This document shows positions 16,998 through 37,332 of a stretch of DNA of 64,000 nucleotides, piece after piece. Numbering within the stretch: the first letter of the stretch is position 1; the number at the start of each line of letters is the position of its first letter. The notes beneath the pieces are model-generated. The model did no database searches. It was given only the letters and a program-made list of their open reading frames with translations, and was not told the DNA's origin. The position numbers were made by a program, and so were the translations under genes. The DNA is from Veillonellaceae bacterium (GTDB lineage Bacteria > Bacillota > Negativicutes > Veillonellales > Negativicoccaceae). The stretch lies in assembly GCA_022771805.1 (NCBI GenBank), contig JALELM010000020.1, positions 62,001 to 126,000 of the forward strand. Reading direction: 5' to 3'.

Positions 16998-18254
16998 TCA
17001 ATAATACGGCCAAACAATCGGGATAACGATGCACGATACGATCAGACAGACGGCAACCAAGCCCGAGCCGACCTTGAGATAATCCATGAAGCGATACTTG
17101 CCCGGCGCAAGAACCAATGTATTCGGCGGTGTGCCGACAGGACTTGCAAAAGCGCAGGAAGAGGCAATCAGAATTGCCATCAGTACCGCCTGCGGATTGG
17201 CGTGAAGGCTGGATGCGATCGCGATGCCGACGGGACAAAGCAATGCTTTGGAGGCCGTGTTCGACATAAACTGAGTCAGGCCGACCGCCAGCAGGAAGAG
17301 CACAATCGTGACCGTAAGCACGGAAGGCTCGCCGCCCATGACCGCCAAGACATAGTGAGCGATCAGCTTGCCCGCGCCGGTTGTATTCATCGCATTGGCA
17401 AGCGGAATCATCCCCGCAAAAAGGAAAATAGTCATCCAGTCGATGGAATGATACGCTTCTTTTTCTGTGATGCAGCGAGTCAGGACGCAGCAAACCGCAC
17501 CGATAACCGCCACGATATGCAACGGCAATCCGATCGCCATCGCTACGATGACGCCGAGCAGGATAATACCGCAAACCCACTGCATGGCCGTGCGTTCTTC
17601 CGCAACGCCGTCGTCTTCTTCCGGGATAACCTGCGAGAGATCGTTCGGCAGAAGATGTTTCCCGAAAAACATCATGTACAGAGTCCCTGCAATCGTAATC
17701 GGGATACCGAGCCAGGCATATTCGAAGAAACCGAATTGCAACTCGGGCATACCCGCGGCACGCAATGCCACATTGGCAAGCATATTCGGCGGTGTACCGA
17801 TAAGCGTGATCGTACCGCCGAGGCCGCAAGCGAAAGCCAGCGGCATCAATTGCCGCGAAGCGGAAATTTTAGCGCGGGAACAAATACCCAAGACCACGGG
17901 AATGAGACAGGCACAAGTGCCCGTATTCGACAAAAATGCGGACATGGCCGCAGCGATGACCATGATTCCGGCCATCAGGCGGTTTTCGCTCGTGCCGCAA
18001 GCCCTGACTACGAGGCCGCCGAGTCGCTGTGCCAGACCGGTTTGGAACATGGAGGCGCCGACGATGAACATCCCGCCGAAGAGAACGACGGTATCATCCG
18101 CCAGGCCGAGAAAAATTTCTCGAAATGGAATAAGACCGAGCAGGCCGCAAGCCATTGCGGCCAAAATAGCGGTAACCGCCAGGGGAATGATTTCCGTGAC
18201 GAATAAAATGGCGACTACCACCAAAATAGCAATACAAATCAAATCGGGTGACAT
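16998..18254 (-). CDS. SLC13 (DASS) family carboxylate/anion transporter
   Basis: A 418-residue membrane carrier with about 11 segments and the two inverted-repeat signatures SNTGTC and GTPPNMLAN in the first half, and SNTASKALL and GTPPNTLV in the second. The family imports di- or tricarboxylates or sulfate with sodium. An AGGAGG site precedes the start. A divergent LysR regulator next door probably responds to the transported acid (inference). Confidence 0.87.
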   Translation of the reverse strand: MSPDLICIAILVVVAILFVTEIIPLAVTAILAAMACGLLGLIPFREIFLGLADDTVVLFGGMFIVGASMFQTGLAQRLGGLVVRACGTSENRLMAGIMVIAAAMSAFLSNTGTCACLIPVVLGICSRAKISASRQLMPLAFACGLGGTITLIGTPPNMLANVALRAAGMPELQFGFFEYAWLGIPITIAGTLYMMFFGKHLLPNDLSQVIPEEDDGVAEERTAMQWVCGIILLGVIVAMAIGLPLHIVAVIGAVCCVLTRCITEKEAYHSIDWMTIFLFAGMIPLANAMNTTGAGKLIAHYVLAVMGGEPSVLTVTIVLFLLAVGLTQFMSNTASKALLCPVGIAIASSLHANPQAVLMAILIASSCAFASPVGTPPNTLVLAPGKYRFMDYLKVGSGLVAVCLIVSCIVIPIVWPYY

Positions 18255-18280: not shown

Positions 18281-18481
18281 TCAGTCACGCTCCTCGCGGC
18301 GGGTGCCGTTACAAGGCCAGCCGGGGACGGCTTCCATACTGCCGTGCGTGATGAAGTGCCCCGTACGTGTACGTTTTGCCAACATGTGATGGTAAGCTCT
18401 CTGGCTTACTTTTTGCAGATATTCCCGTGTCTGCAGATCAAAAGAGGGGACGGGAATAGAAATAAGTTCTTTTGTAATCAT
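18281..18481 (-). CDS. Small hypothetical protein preceding the SLC13 gene
   Basis: A 66-codon frame ending 26 bases before the carrier start, with AAAGGAAA about 9 bases before its ATG. The product is soluble, basic and His-rich (RAYHHMLAKRTRTGHFITHG) and not of low complexity. It is probably co-transcribed from a minus-strand TTTACA-N18-TATAGT promoter. A GAAATCGATTTC palindrome at 18507-18518 lies between that promoter and the start and may be an operator. I do not recognise the family, and it may not be a real gene. Confidence 0.42.
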   Translation of the reverse strand: MITKELISIPVPSFDLQTREYLQKVSQRAYHHMLAKRTRTGHFITHGSMEAVPGWPCNGTRREERD

Positions 18482-18755
18482 GCCAAGCTTCTTTTCCTTT
18501 CATAACGAAATCGATTTCTACTCTTACTATAGCGAAACGGCGGGTATTCTGTAAAATTGAGGTTACTTATTAAAAATATAAATATATATCATAAATTCAC
18601 CCCATAAGTGCGGGCGGTTTTTTGTGTTAAAATAGGGATGTAAAATAAAAGTTAGTGTTTGGTAAGGATGTATGGCCGAGCTGAAGACGATTGATACAGG
18701 CATGTCCATATTCTTTATGCTATCTTTGAAAAAACGAGAGGTACGGGAACGACAA

Positions 18756-19784
18756 ATGGATACGGAATATTATCGTAATTTTATGGCTATGGTGGAAGCG
18801 GGCAATATGACTCGGGCGGCGGAGTTTTTGCATATTACGCAACCGACACTCAGCAAGCAGTTGCAGCTGTTGGAAAAGATGTACGGTACGAAATTGATCA
18901 TTGCCGCGCGCGGACGCCGTCGCATGCATTTGACCGAGGCCGGTGAAACGCTGTATCGGCGCTCGAAGCATATTTGCTCCTTGGAGGATCTCGCTTTGGA
19001 TGAGGTGGCCAGCGTGACTCGGGAAGTGCGCGGCGTGCTGCGGTTCAGTATCTCACAGGGGCGATCGCATAATTTTATCCGGAAAGTCCTGACCGGGTTC
19101 CATGCACGGTATCCGCAGGTTACATTTGAAATGCACGAAGGGATCATCACGACGCAGCAGGAAGAATTGCTGATGGGCATTACCGATCTCGGCATTTGCA
19201 ATACGGAACTGACGCAACCGGATCAATTCGAGGTGCTGTTTACGCGCGAAGAAGAGTTGACGGTCGTTGCCCGCCCGGGGTTTTTAGGGTCGCATCCGGA
19301 CGGGAATGTGACTTTGGAGATGTTGCAGGAGGTGCCGTTGGCGATTTCCGGCGGCTGTGCGGGGATGTTGCGGAAGCACATCGGTAATTTGTATGATTAC
19401 TTTCACCCGATCGCCATTTGTACGACGAAGAGCTCGGCGATTGCTTGGGCGCAAACGGGGGAAGTGGCAGCACTGATCCCGGCCGAACCGAACGAGGTGT
19501 TGGATCCGGAGCTGCAACGTTTGCGCGTGGAGTGCGGCGATATCCGGTTGAGTAAATCCATCGTGCGAGCACTCAATCGGCCGCTTTCGCATGTGGCGGA
19601 AGTATTCCTGCGTTATTATGCCGATACGCGCAGGAATGAAGCGGAGCAGAGCGGCGGCATTTGTGAAGAGGAGCCGAAGCTGCAGGGGCGCGTAACGAGC
19701 AAGAGACGGGGAAAGCAAAACAGAAAGAGAGCGAAACAGAACAGACAGAACAGAAAGACGGATATGGAAAGCAAGGGAAAATAA
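18756..19784 (+). CDS. LysR-family transcriptional regulator with basic C-terminal tail
   Basis: The N-terminal winged helix (YYRNFMAMVEAGNMTRAAEFLHITQPTLSKQL) is followed by an effector-binding domain ending around NRPLSHVAEVFLRYY. ATG 18756 is chosen because the helix-turn-helix starts there. Starts at 18672 (AAGGA close upstream) or 18702 are possible and would add up to 28 residues. The last 45-50 residues are a Lys/Arg/Gln-rich tail unlike other LysR proteins. It is divergent from the SLC13 carrier and is the natural candidate to regulate it. Confidence 0.88.
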   Translation: MDTEYYRNFMAMVEAGNMTRAAEFLHITQPTLSKQLQLLEKMYGTKLIIAARGRRRMHLTEAGETLYRRSKHICSLEDLALDEVASVTREVRGVLRFSISQGRSHNFIRKVLTGFHARYPQVTFEMHEGIITTQQEELLMGITDLGICNTELTQPDQFEVLFTREEELTVVARPGFLGSHPDGNVTLEMLQEVPLAISGGCAGMLRKHIGNLYDYFHPIAICTTKSSAIAWAQTGEVAALIPAEPNEVLDPELQRLRVECGDIRLSKSIVRALNRPLSHVAEVFLRYYADTRRNEAEQSGGICEEEPKLQGRVTSKRRGKQNRKRAKQNRQNRKTDMESKGK

Positions 19785-19813
19785 AAAAAGACCGCGTAAG
19801 CGGTCTTTTTTAT
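19785..19813 (+). terminator. Terminator after the lysR gene
   Basis: AAAAAGACCGC-GTAA-GCGGTCTTTTT hairpin directly after the stop codon. Confidence 0.88.
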
Positions 19814-19816
19814 TCG

Positions 19817-19900
19817 GTACCGGTATCGCCGGAGAAGCGTAGCCACCCGAGAGCTTCGGTATATTTCCCCAAGTATACCGCTACCGTACGATACCGGTAC
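19817..19900. other. 84-bp structured inverted repeat, candidate ncRNA or small element
   Basis: Outer 12-bp perfect arms GTACCGGTATCG (19817-19828) and CGATACCGGTAC (19889-19900). Inside are a CGGTATA/TATACCG hairpin (19857-19863 with 19874-19880) and GTAGC/GCTAC (19839-19843 with 19880-19884). The arms also share near-identical GGTATC/GGTATA and GATACC/TATACC blocks, so alternative pairings exist. On the minus strand it lies directly downstream of the promoter-like module at 19927-19961. No coding frame of note; function unknown. Confidence 0.5.
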
Positions 19901-19926
19901 TTTCAGTGTAGCGGTTGCGGCTTCAT

Positions 19927-19995
19927 TTGTAAAATGTAAGTCTGCTATATATAATGCAAAATCTGCTATAAAAAGCGGCTATATATAATGCAAAA
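19927..19995. repeat. Promoter-like repeat module A with an 18-bp direct repeat
   Basis: GCTATATATAATGCAAAA occurs at 19944-19961 and again at 19978-19995. The first copy sits in a module that reads as TTGTAA-N17-TATAAT on the plus strand (19927-19955) and as TTGCAT-N17-CATTTT on the minus strand. The same module recurs at 20419-20451, and partly at 20865-20905. The plus-strand reading would start near 19962 and could make a short RNA ending at the hairpin at 20052-20080. Confidence 0.55.
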
Positions 19996-20050
19996 CTTGC
20001 GAGATCCCTTCGTCGGCAACCGGTAAGAAGTGATGAAAACCTTGGCAAGT

Positions 20051-20081
20051 AAAAAGTCTGCCGCAGTATGGCAGACTTTTA
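20051..20081. terminator. Terminator of the first small island gene
   Basis: AAAAGTCTGCC / GGCAGACTTTT hairpin with T-runs on both strands, 20 bases after the minus-strand stop. It is followed on the minus strand by TTGCC, as is the terminator of the paralogous gene. Confidence 0.8.
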
Positions 20082-20100: not shown

Positions 20101-20352
20101 TCAGTGCAAAGACGAGCGAACCGAATCAATGTCCACCCCGGAGTGGTAGTATATGAGATCCGCTCGAGCTAAACGCTTTCGGCACAAGTAACGGTATATA
20201 CCGTTGAGTCGGAATATCTCGCTTCGGCTTACCGCCGGCACGATCCACGGAGACAAGTCGGTGCATTGTCTGTGCGGACGATAGCGGTCGGCAGCTGCGA
20301 GGCGTACGACAATAAGATGCCGAATGAACGCAAGCCATATTTTTCGTACCAT
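20101..20352 (-). CDS. Small protein of unknown function with duplicated RHL/AD-YY motif (paralog 1)
   Basis: An 83-residue basic protein. ATG 20352 is chosen because AAGGAGGT lies seven bases upstream; an in-frame ATG 13 codons earlier lacks a site. It contains two copies of one motif, FIRHLIVVRLAAAD near residue 10 and IYRYLCRKRLARAD near residue 55. Arg, Leu, Arg, Leu, Ala, Ala and Asp match at identical spacing. The second copy is followed by a Tyr-Tyr pair, the first by Tyr-Arg. The neighbouring gene at 20567-20809 encodes a paralog with the same architecture, ribosome site and terminator layout. No family recognised; no signal peptide or clear TM segment. Confidence 0.65.
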   Translation of the reverse strand: MVRKIWLAFIRHLIVVRLAAADRYRPHRQCTDLSPWIVPAVSRSEIFRLNGIYRYLCRKRLARADLIYYHSGVDIDSVRSSLH

Positions 20353-20418
20353 GCTCGGACCTCCTTTCACGGCCATTCGTGCCTTGCTCAAGTTCTACGT
20401 TAGCGCATAACGGGAGGT

Positions 20419-20451
20419 TTGTAAAATATAAGTAGGTCATATATAATACAA
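20419..20451. promoter_or_regulatory. Bidirectional promoter-like module B
   Basis: On the minus strand, TTGTAT (20451-20446), 17 bases and TATTTT (20428-20423), upstream of paralog 1 with a leader of about 64 bases. On the plus strand the same bases read TTGTAA (20419-20424), 17 bases and TATAAT (20442-20447). Module A at 19927 shares almost the whole sequence. A third, weaker relative (ACTTGTATTTTAC on the minus strand) lies upstream of paralog 2 at about 20873-20885. Confidence 0.6.
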
Positions 20452-20490
20452 AAATTTGCGGCAGCGGCGGTTTCTGCAAGCAAGGCAATT

Positions 20491-20530
20491 AAAAACGGAA
20501 CGAGTCGGCGTTTCCGTCGACTCATTCCGT
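20491..20530 (-). terminator. Terminator of the second small island gene
   Basis: On the minus strand, a 13-bp stem ACGGAATGAGTCG / CGACTCGTTCCGT with one mismatch, followed by TTTTT. It lies 36 bases after the paralog 2 stop. Confidence 0.8.
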
Positions 20531-20566
20531 TGTCGTGCCGCATATGCCCCTGCGGCGGTACGAAGC

Positions 20567-20809
20567 TTAACGTTTGAAAGTGGGACATGCTGCGGCATTA
20601 TAGTACATGCGATCCGCTTGTCGTAAGCGCTTCGTGCACAGATGCTTGTAAGCGCCGCGCATGCGCGACACTTTGCGTCGTGTCCGTGCCGGAGCTGTTG
20701 GAGATGGCGTTTCCGCGGTTTCGCGGCTACCGTAGTACCAGTCCGCATGGGCGCGACGCTTAGCGAGCAGATGACGAGCAATAGAATTTTCCCCGATTCC
20801 ATTGGCCAT
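20567..20809 (-). CDS. Small protein of unknown function with duplicated RHL/AD-YY motif (paralog 2)
   Basis: An 80-residue basic protein. ATG 20809 has AAAGGAGG seven bases upstream, in a context (ATGAAAGGAGGGACGGTC) matching that of paralog 1. Motif copies: IARHLLAKRRAHAD-W-YY near residue 10 and AYKHLCTKRLRQAD-RM-YY near residue 55, joined by a Pro/Thr/Arg-rich linker. All four copies in the two proteins share [RK]-[HY]-L, then an Arg, then Ala-Asp followed by Tyr. A short helical nucleic-acid-binding repeat is possible but is a guess. The gene forms a unit of about 455 bp duplicated with paralog 1. Confidence 0.65.
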   Translation of the reverse strand: MANGIGENSIARHLLAKRRAHADWYYGSRETAETPSPTAPARTRRKVSRMRGAYKHLCTKRLRQADRMYYNAAACPTFKR

Positions 20810-20925
20810 GACCGTCCCTCCTTTCATCATTATTTGAGTCCCGACTATAGATTAGCCGAGCTTATGATGAAAGTAAAATACAAGTATTTTGGGTTAGGTA
20901 TAGAATTATGGAATATATAGCGGAT

Positions 20926-21564
20926 TTACTTCGCCTCCGCGCGCAAAGGAATGGGGATGTCCAGTTTCTCGCCGGTCGCGATACGAATGCGCGCGGCGCT
21001 GAGTTCGATCAGGTCTGCAGTAAATGCGGCGACTAAGTCCGCTGGTACATCGACAGTCCAGGTGACCTCGGCGGCAAATTCACGTTCCGTCACCCGGTAC
21101 GGCTGATCCTGCCAAGCTTTTTCGACGGCGCCGATCAGGTCGTAGGGAATGACGACGGAGTGGCGGATGTGCGGAATAAAGCGGACGAGCGGAGCTTGCC
21201 GCAATGCTTCCGCCAGGCTGCCGCCGTAGGCGCGAACCAAGCCGCCCGTACCCAGCTTGATGCCGCCGAAGTAGCGAGTGACCACGGCGAGAATATCAGT
21301 CACATCCCGGTGCTGCAGGACGGTCAGCATCGGACGGCCGGCAGTTCCTGCGGGTTCGCCGTCGTCGTTCGACTGCTCGCGGATTTGCACCGTGCCGAGA
21401 CGGAAGGCACTGCAATGGTGAGTTGCGTCCCGCTCCCGTTTCTTGATGGCGGCCAACGCTTCGCGGGCTTGACTTTCCGTTTGCGCCGGGATCAGATCGA
21501 CGAGGAAGCGGGATTTTTTTATTACGGTTTCCGAGTGAAAAGGATCCAAGATGGAAATATGCAT
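20926..21564 (-). CDS. YigZ/IMPACT family protein
   Basis: A 212-residue protein with the N-terminal UPF0029 domain: KKSRFLVDLIPAQTE, then HHCSAFRLG, SNDDGEPAGTAGRPML, YFGGIKLGTGGLVRAYG. A C-terminal DUF1949-like domain follows. The family is linked to translation control or prolidase-like activity, without a settled role in bacteria. ATG 21564 has AAAGGAGGAG upstream; the frame extends 55 codons further but without homology. Confidence 0.92.
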   Translation of the reverse strand: MHISILDPFHSETVIKKSRFLVDLIPAQTESQAREALAAIKKRERDATHHCSAFRLGTVQIREQSNDDGEPAGTAGRPMLTVLQHRDVTDILAVVTRYFGGIKLGTGGLVRAYGGSLAEALRQAPLVRFIPHIRHSVVIPYDLIGAVEKAWQDQPYRVTEREFAAEVTWTVDVPADLVAAFTADLIELSAARIRIATGEKLDIPIPLRAEAK

Positions 21565-37298: not shown

Positions 37299-37332
37299 AA
37301 TGACGACCCTGTGTTATTCATGAGAGGAAAAC

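Follow-up and report, generated by a model that had tools for sequence, protein, structure and literature searches.

Tandem genes for small cationic repeat proteins form a LysR-linked branch of a Negativicutes small-protein family

Introduction

Proteins of fewer than 100 residues are often overlooked in annotation, and small genes that accompany a well-described regulator and transporter are easily passed over. A LysR gene divergent from its target is the usual arrangement of regulator and target, and LysR genes with divergent CitMHS/DASS carboxylate-uptake genes resemble the locus described here in regulator class, transporter class and divergent layout; to our knowledge, the described LysR-transporter pairs have no counterpart to its added small-protein genes or to their promoter. 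The nearest pairing of small proteins with an RNA is that of FbpA, FbpB and FbpC of Bacillus subtilis, basic proteins regulated by Fur, with the sRNA FsrA. Small basic proteins and an RNA appear to be co-regulated in both cases, but the regulator differs, and the parallel drawn here concerns working style alone.

The closest system in working style is the DUF1127 family (PF06568; YjiS, CcaF1, Agrobacterium SDPs), whose members are described (PMC12501420) as small, basic and helical, often with several paralogs per genome, and as regulating transport via protein-protein contact or RNA. The proteins of the present locus are likewise small, basic, paralogous and, by a low-confidence model, helical. 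They differ in lacking a PF06568 match, in their motif, in occurring in Negativicutes, in being LysR-linked, in sharing a promoter and in having an internal repeat.

Results

The tandem gene pair

The two genes lie on the minus strand of the window (the whole 64-kb stretch of DNA that was analysed). Gene 1 (20567..20809, -) encodes a basic protein of 80 aa (pI 10.9), and gene 2 (20101..20352, -) one of 83 aa (pI 10.6), counted from the ATG downstream of its ribosome site. As the first-pass annotation had reported, each carries the same motif twice, once near the N-terminus and once near the C-terminus, and all four copies are ungapped 14-mers: IARHLLAKRRAHAD (20741..20782, -) and AYKHLCTKRLRQAD (20612..20653, -) in gene 1, FIRHLIVVRLAAAD (20287..20328, -) and IYRYLCRKRLARAD (20158..20199, -) in gene 2. 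The common ribosome site (GAAAGGAGG, 7 bases upstream of both ATGs) and the similar placement of the terminators also proved correct in the sequence; these are strong hairpins at 20491..20531 (-; z -4.2) for gene 1 and 20051..20080 (-) for gene 2. Between gene 1 and gene 2 the spacing is 457 bp for the ribosome-site/start repeats and 452 bp for the promoters, and a within-genome search relates the two genes at E = 3.5e-10. They are tandem paralogs, in keeping with the earlier claim of duplicated units. The internal repeat, also claimed then, scores better than in shuffled sequences (p = 0.005 for gene 1, 0.028 for gene 2), as it does in the Negativicoccus ortholog (p = 0.0015) and in a relative in genome G001 (p = 0.0005).

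The two proteins have charges of +8.8 and +12.7 at pH 7 and GRAVY values of -0.96 and -0.03, and no hydrophobic membrane segment is seen in either sequence. AlphaFold2, run with four sequences, predicts a long helix for each of the two motif copies, at low confidence (pLDDT 60-63, pTM 0.30), suggesting a possible helical hairpin fold. Searches of Pfam, NCBIfam and PHROGs at the curated cut-off returned no match, only chance matches below threshold; PF06568 gave none even at E up to 10 in one search and up to 1 in two others, and a sequence-profile search of PDB chains gave 0 matches up to E = 10. In the library searched, no report connects a LysR with both a divergent gene and a small basic protein, and none deals with small ORFs next to LysR genes of Veillonella.

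Upstream of the pair is a gene of the YigZ/IMPACT family (20926..21564, -), a conserved flank. In two Negativicoccus genomes, one of them an N. massiliensis contig, a 71-aa two-copy syntenic ortholog lies between the YigZ/IMPACT gene and a convergent LysR gene. The order YigZ, small gene, LysR is conserved between the window and Negativicoccus, where the sole small gene flanks LysR at its 3' end instead of diverging from it. The two Negativicoccus orthologs differ by 13 synonymous against 7 non-synonymous changes, which gives a dN/dS of 0.14 (Fisher p = 3.5e-5), similar to the values for LysR (0.12) and YigZ (0.09) in the same genome pair. Homology is certain for gene 1, gene 2 and the ortholog from Negativicoccus, and because this ortholog is syntenic, frame-conserved and under purifying selection, gene 1 and gene 2 are real coding genes; the neutral drift or lack of frame-conserved homologs that would have spoken against them was not found. 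A full-length profile found no further close relatives in 61 genomes of the order, and in a scan of genome contigs N. massiliensis was the sole match beyond the window's own genome.

Shared promoter and a structured RNA

Both genes are preceded by a promoter of the form ATTTTAC-N17/18-TAnnnT, the 17 or 18 bases being counted from the end of TTTAC[A/T] to the TAnnnT box. A pattern scan places it at 20849..20879 (-; ATTTTAC-N-TAATCT) for gene 1 and 20397..20427 (-; ATTTTAC-N-TAACGT) for gene 2, with two more at 19905..19935 (-; ATTTTAC-N-TACACT) and 18526..18557 (-; ATTTTACA-N-TATAGT). These four are the only occurrences in the 64-kb window, against 0.33 expected, and all are inside the cluster. 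The whole genome has 13 matches, four of which are in the cluster; in G001 the count is 3 of 16. For the stricter form ACTTnnATTTTAC-N-TAnnnT the 1.44-Mb genome as a whole has just three sites, each of them in the cluster.

The promoter at 19905..19935 belongs to a third unit (19784..19898, -), which would make a long hairpin RNA with a terminator (z -5.75) and in which neither an ORF nor a ribosome site is seen. G001 has a promoter and a structured RNA at the equivalent position (L050 5869-6003), and in both G000 and G001 the hairpin RNA with the shared promoter adjoins the 3' end of LysR. In Rfam the RNA has no match at the gathering score; its resemblance to Leu_leader, at 24 bits against a cut-off of 50, is too slight for an assignment. 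Its pairing with the gene leaders is no better than that of shuffles.

Other short elements surround these units. At 19938-19996 (-), ahead of the third-unit promoter, TTTTGCATTATATATAGC stands twice in direct orientation; it is an imperfect palindrome (TGC-WW-TATATA-WW-GC). Gene 2 is preceded by a related copy and gene 1 by an inverted one. These copies are possibly a regulator site or an UP element. On the plus strand, promoter-like TTGTAA-17-TATAAT sequences occur just past the 3' end of each gene (19927-19955 and 20419-20447), and could give rise to antisense RNAs.

LysR, transporter and a single-copy relative

The conserved partner of the small genes is a LysR-type regulator (18756..19784, +). 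Divergent from it, under the promoter at 18526..18557, is a gene for a single-copy relative of 66 aa (18281..18481, -), with one copy of the motif (RAYHHMLAKRTRTGH). It ends 26 bp upstream of a gene for a CitMHS (DASS/citrate-type) transporter (16998..18254, -), and the two are probably in one operon. An ortholog of this relative occupies the equivalent position in G001 (score 77, p <= 0.001; HFYHHLLEKRLASGQ). G001 also encodes a two-copy protein after the transporter gene. In that two-copy gene a perfect hairpin, CCGGA-TTA-TCCGG, separates the ribosome site from the ATG (L050 8750-8790). The extent given in the first-pass annotation holds for the gene pair, but the context that defines the pair, made up of the shared promoter, the LysR partner, the relative at 18281-18481 and the RNA unit at 19784-19898, lies outside it.

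Short-similarity tests relate gene 1 to this relative (p <= 0.001); gene 2 alone shows no significant similarity to it, and an HMM of six repeats does not place it above noise. Two other window matches of that HMM, at 37324 and 56144, were taken as chance, the former after being read.

Relatives across the Negativicutes

A repeat HMM trained solely on Negativicoccaceae repeats and run over 380 Negativicutes genomes found an outside match in G047 (E = 0.0028). In G047 the small gene is divergent from a LysR gene that a separate search had identified as the nearest ortholog beyond Negativicoccaceae (52% identity), and the promoter of the small gene matches the shared pattern exactly. Small genes divergent from LysR are also present in G043, with the shared promoter, in G004, and in many Veillonella-type genomes, where the motif is weaker and a W-P-x-P-x-T segment is shared. 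A widened model, which contained the G043 and G004 sequences and excluded the loci it went on to find, added five further g10 genomes, in which the gene, preceded by the promoter ATTTCAC..TATACT, is beside YigZ, not LysR. It also added G111, which belongs to a different family in the class and has the gene beside a 44%-identical LysR. Weak HMM matches in G286 (L077), G258 (L079) and G342 (L080) were set aside for want of a matching small gene or LysR neighbour, as were later ones (L127, L129, L131) that had no LysR neighbour.

The LysR-linked proteins share the motif x-[YWFI]-x-[HYR]-[LMI]-x-x-x-R-[LR]-x-x-[ACG], and their genes adjoin an orthologous LysR or YigZ gene. The promoter, as ATTT[TC]AC-N17/18-TAnnnT, is upstream in G000, G001, G002, G003, G047, G043 and the five g10 genomes, and absent upstream of the G004 and G111 small genes. 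Similarity tests are significant for the 18281 relative against G047, G001 sg2 against G047 and G047 against G043 (p = 0.0005 each), and for G043 against Veillonella (p = 0.0025); several other pairwise tests between single-copy and two-copy groups are not, and profile comparisons are weak. The link between the two groups depends on short similarity, with promoter and neighbourhood as independent support, and the Veillonella-type proteins are probable rather than proven members. Veillonella-type relatives and the G043/G019 pair show dN/dS of 0.20-0.30 (p <= 0.0013); the close pair G019/G039 has too few changes for an estimate.

One Veillonella-type genome (L114 974-5438) likewise has a copper-type ATPase, YigZ, the small gene and LysR in this order, and the neighbourhood is therefore old. 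In G004 another small gene (MGSKKSEDEKILEYLKQVGKRYYRP...; L112 5992-6225, -) with a strong ribosome site is directly before CitMHS, beside the same LysR.

The two-copy form has been found in Negativicoccaceae only. Because single-copy relatives are found in other Negativicutes families, beside LysR or YigZ, the two-copy proteins represent a derived branch that has been amplified locally, within a Negativicutes small-protein family that is linked to one LysR clade. The earlier proposal of a new family with an internal repeat therefore stands in that the family is real and matches none in the databases searched, but the repeat belongs to this branch and not to the family as a whole. As an unrecorded family that adjoins one type of regulator and shares its own promoter, it is real and probably regulatory.

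Discussion

With the shared promoter, a strong ribosome site and a terminator each, gene 1 and gene 2 would be strongly expressed stand-alone units, and their products small cationic proteins with a long helix for each of the two motif copies. The LysR clade probably controls the shared promoters. The constant LysR partner, often divergent, the carboxylate transporter that sometimes accompanies it, the basic non-membrane character of the proteins and the strong expression signals together suggest a LysR-controlled modulator with a protein partner. The proteins would be cytoplasmic adaptors or modulators that bind LysR itself or the carboxylate transporter under its control and, when the LysR ligand is present, adjust uptake or response, much as DUF1127 proteins act on PhoR. 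We infer the LysR control, the partner, the effect and the strong expression from the arrangement of genes and signals. Such tuning of carboxylate uptake or response through a protein partner is the most likely mechanism, proposed tentatively and at less than even probability. The broader explanation, a LysR-linked duplicated branch of small cationic modulators with LysR-controlled promoters, is the best overall and has an about even chance of being right.

The main rival is that the proteins are small basic RNA-binding chaperones that work with the hairpin RNA of the cluster, like FbpABC with FsrA. Their high positive charge would fit, as would the hairpin RNA that shares their promoter type and adjoins the 3' end of LysR in G000 and G001; set against this, no RNA with the shared promoter was found in Negativicoccus or other relatives, the RNA has no special pairing to the gene leaders, no known RNA-binding motif is present, and the charge of the relatives is modest (about +3 to +7), so that this role is unlikely, if worth keeping in mind. 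Charge, small size, predicted helices, strong expression signals and tandem copies could describe cationic antimicrobial or membrane-surface peptides acting in the envelope or outside the cell. Here it counts that no signal or leader sequence is seen, that export or modification genes are not nearby, and that the linkage is to a metabolic-type LysR, not to immunity genes, which makes such action improbable.

A type I toxin-antitoxin-like arrangement, in which small cationic peptides are repressed by antisense RNAs from the plus-strand promoters, would draw on the tandem duplication and on the TTGTAA-17-TATAAT sites. Its probability is very low: the GRAVY values are not those of hydrophobic transmembrane toxins, no comparable antisense site was noticed at the Negativicoccus ortholog, and the conserved promoter and LysR linkage, together with long-term purifying selection, speak against it. 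That the ORFs are merely chance frames within a repeated non-coding element could be argued from the third unit, which has the same promoter and no ORF. This idea is hardly credible, being refuted by purifying selection in the Negativicoccus pair and in the wider relatives, and the ribosome sites and the conservation of the frame in other genera and families likewise oppose it.

Returning to the LysR-controlled modulators, the carboxylate transporter, the cationic repeat proteins and the hairpin RNA might all be governed by LysR through one promoter type, as a previously unseen Negativicutes-wide circuit, a possibility that is rather doubtful at present. With its motif, promoter and LysR genetic partner all defined and with relatives across a class, the family lends itself to simple knockout tests, also in its Veillonella-type relatives. 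It may reveal how Negativicutes adjust organic-acid uptake.
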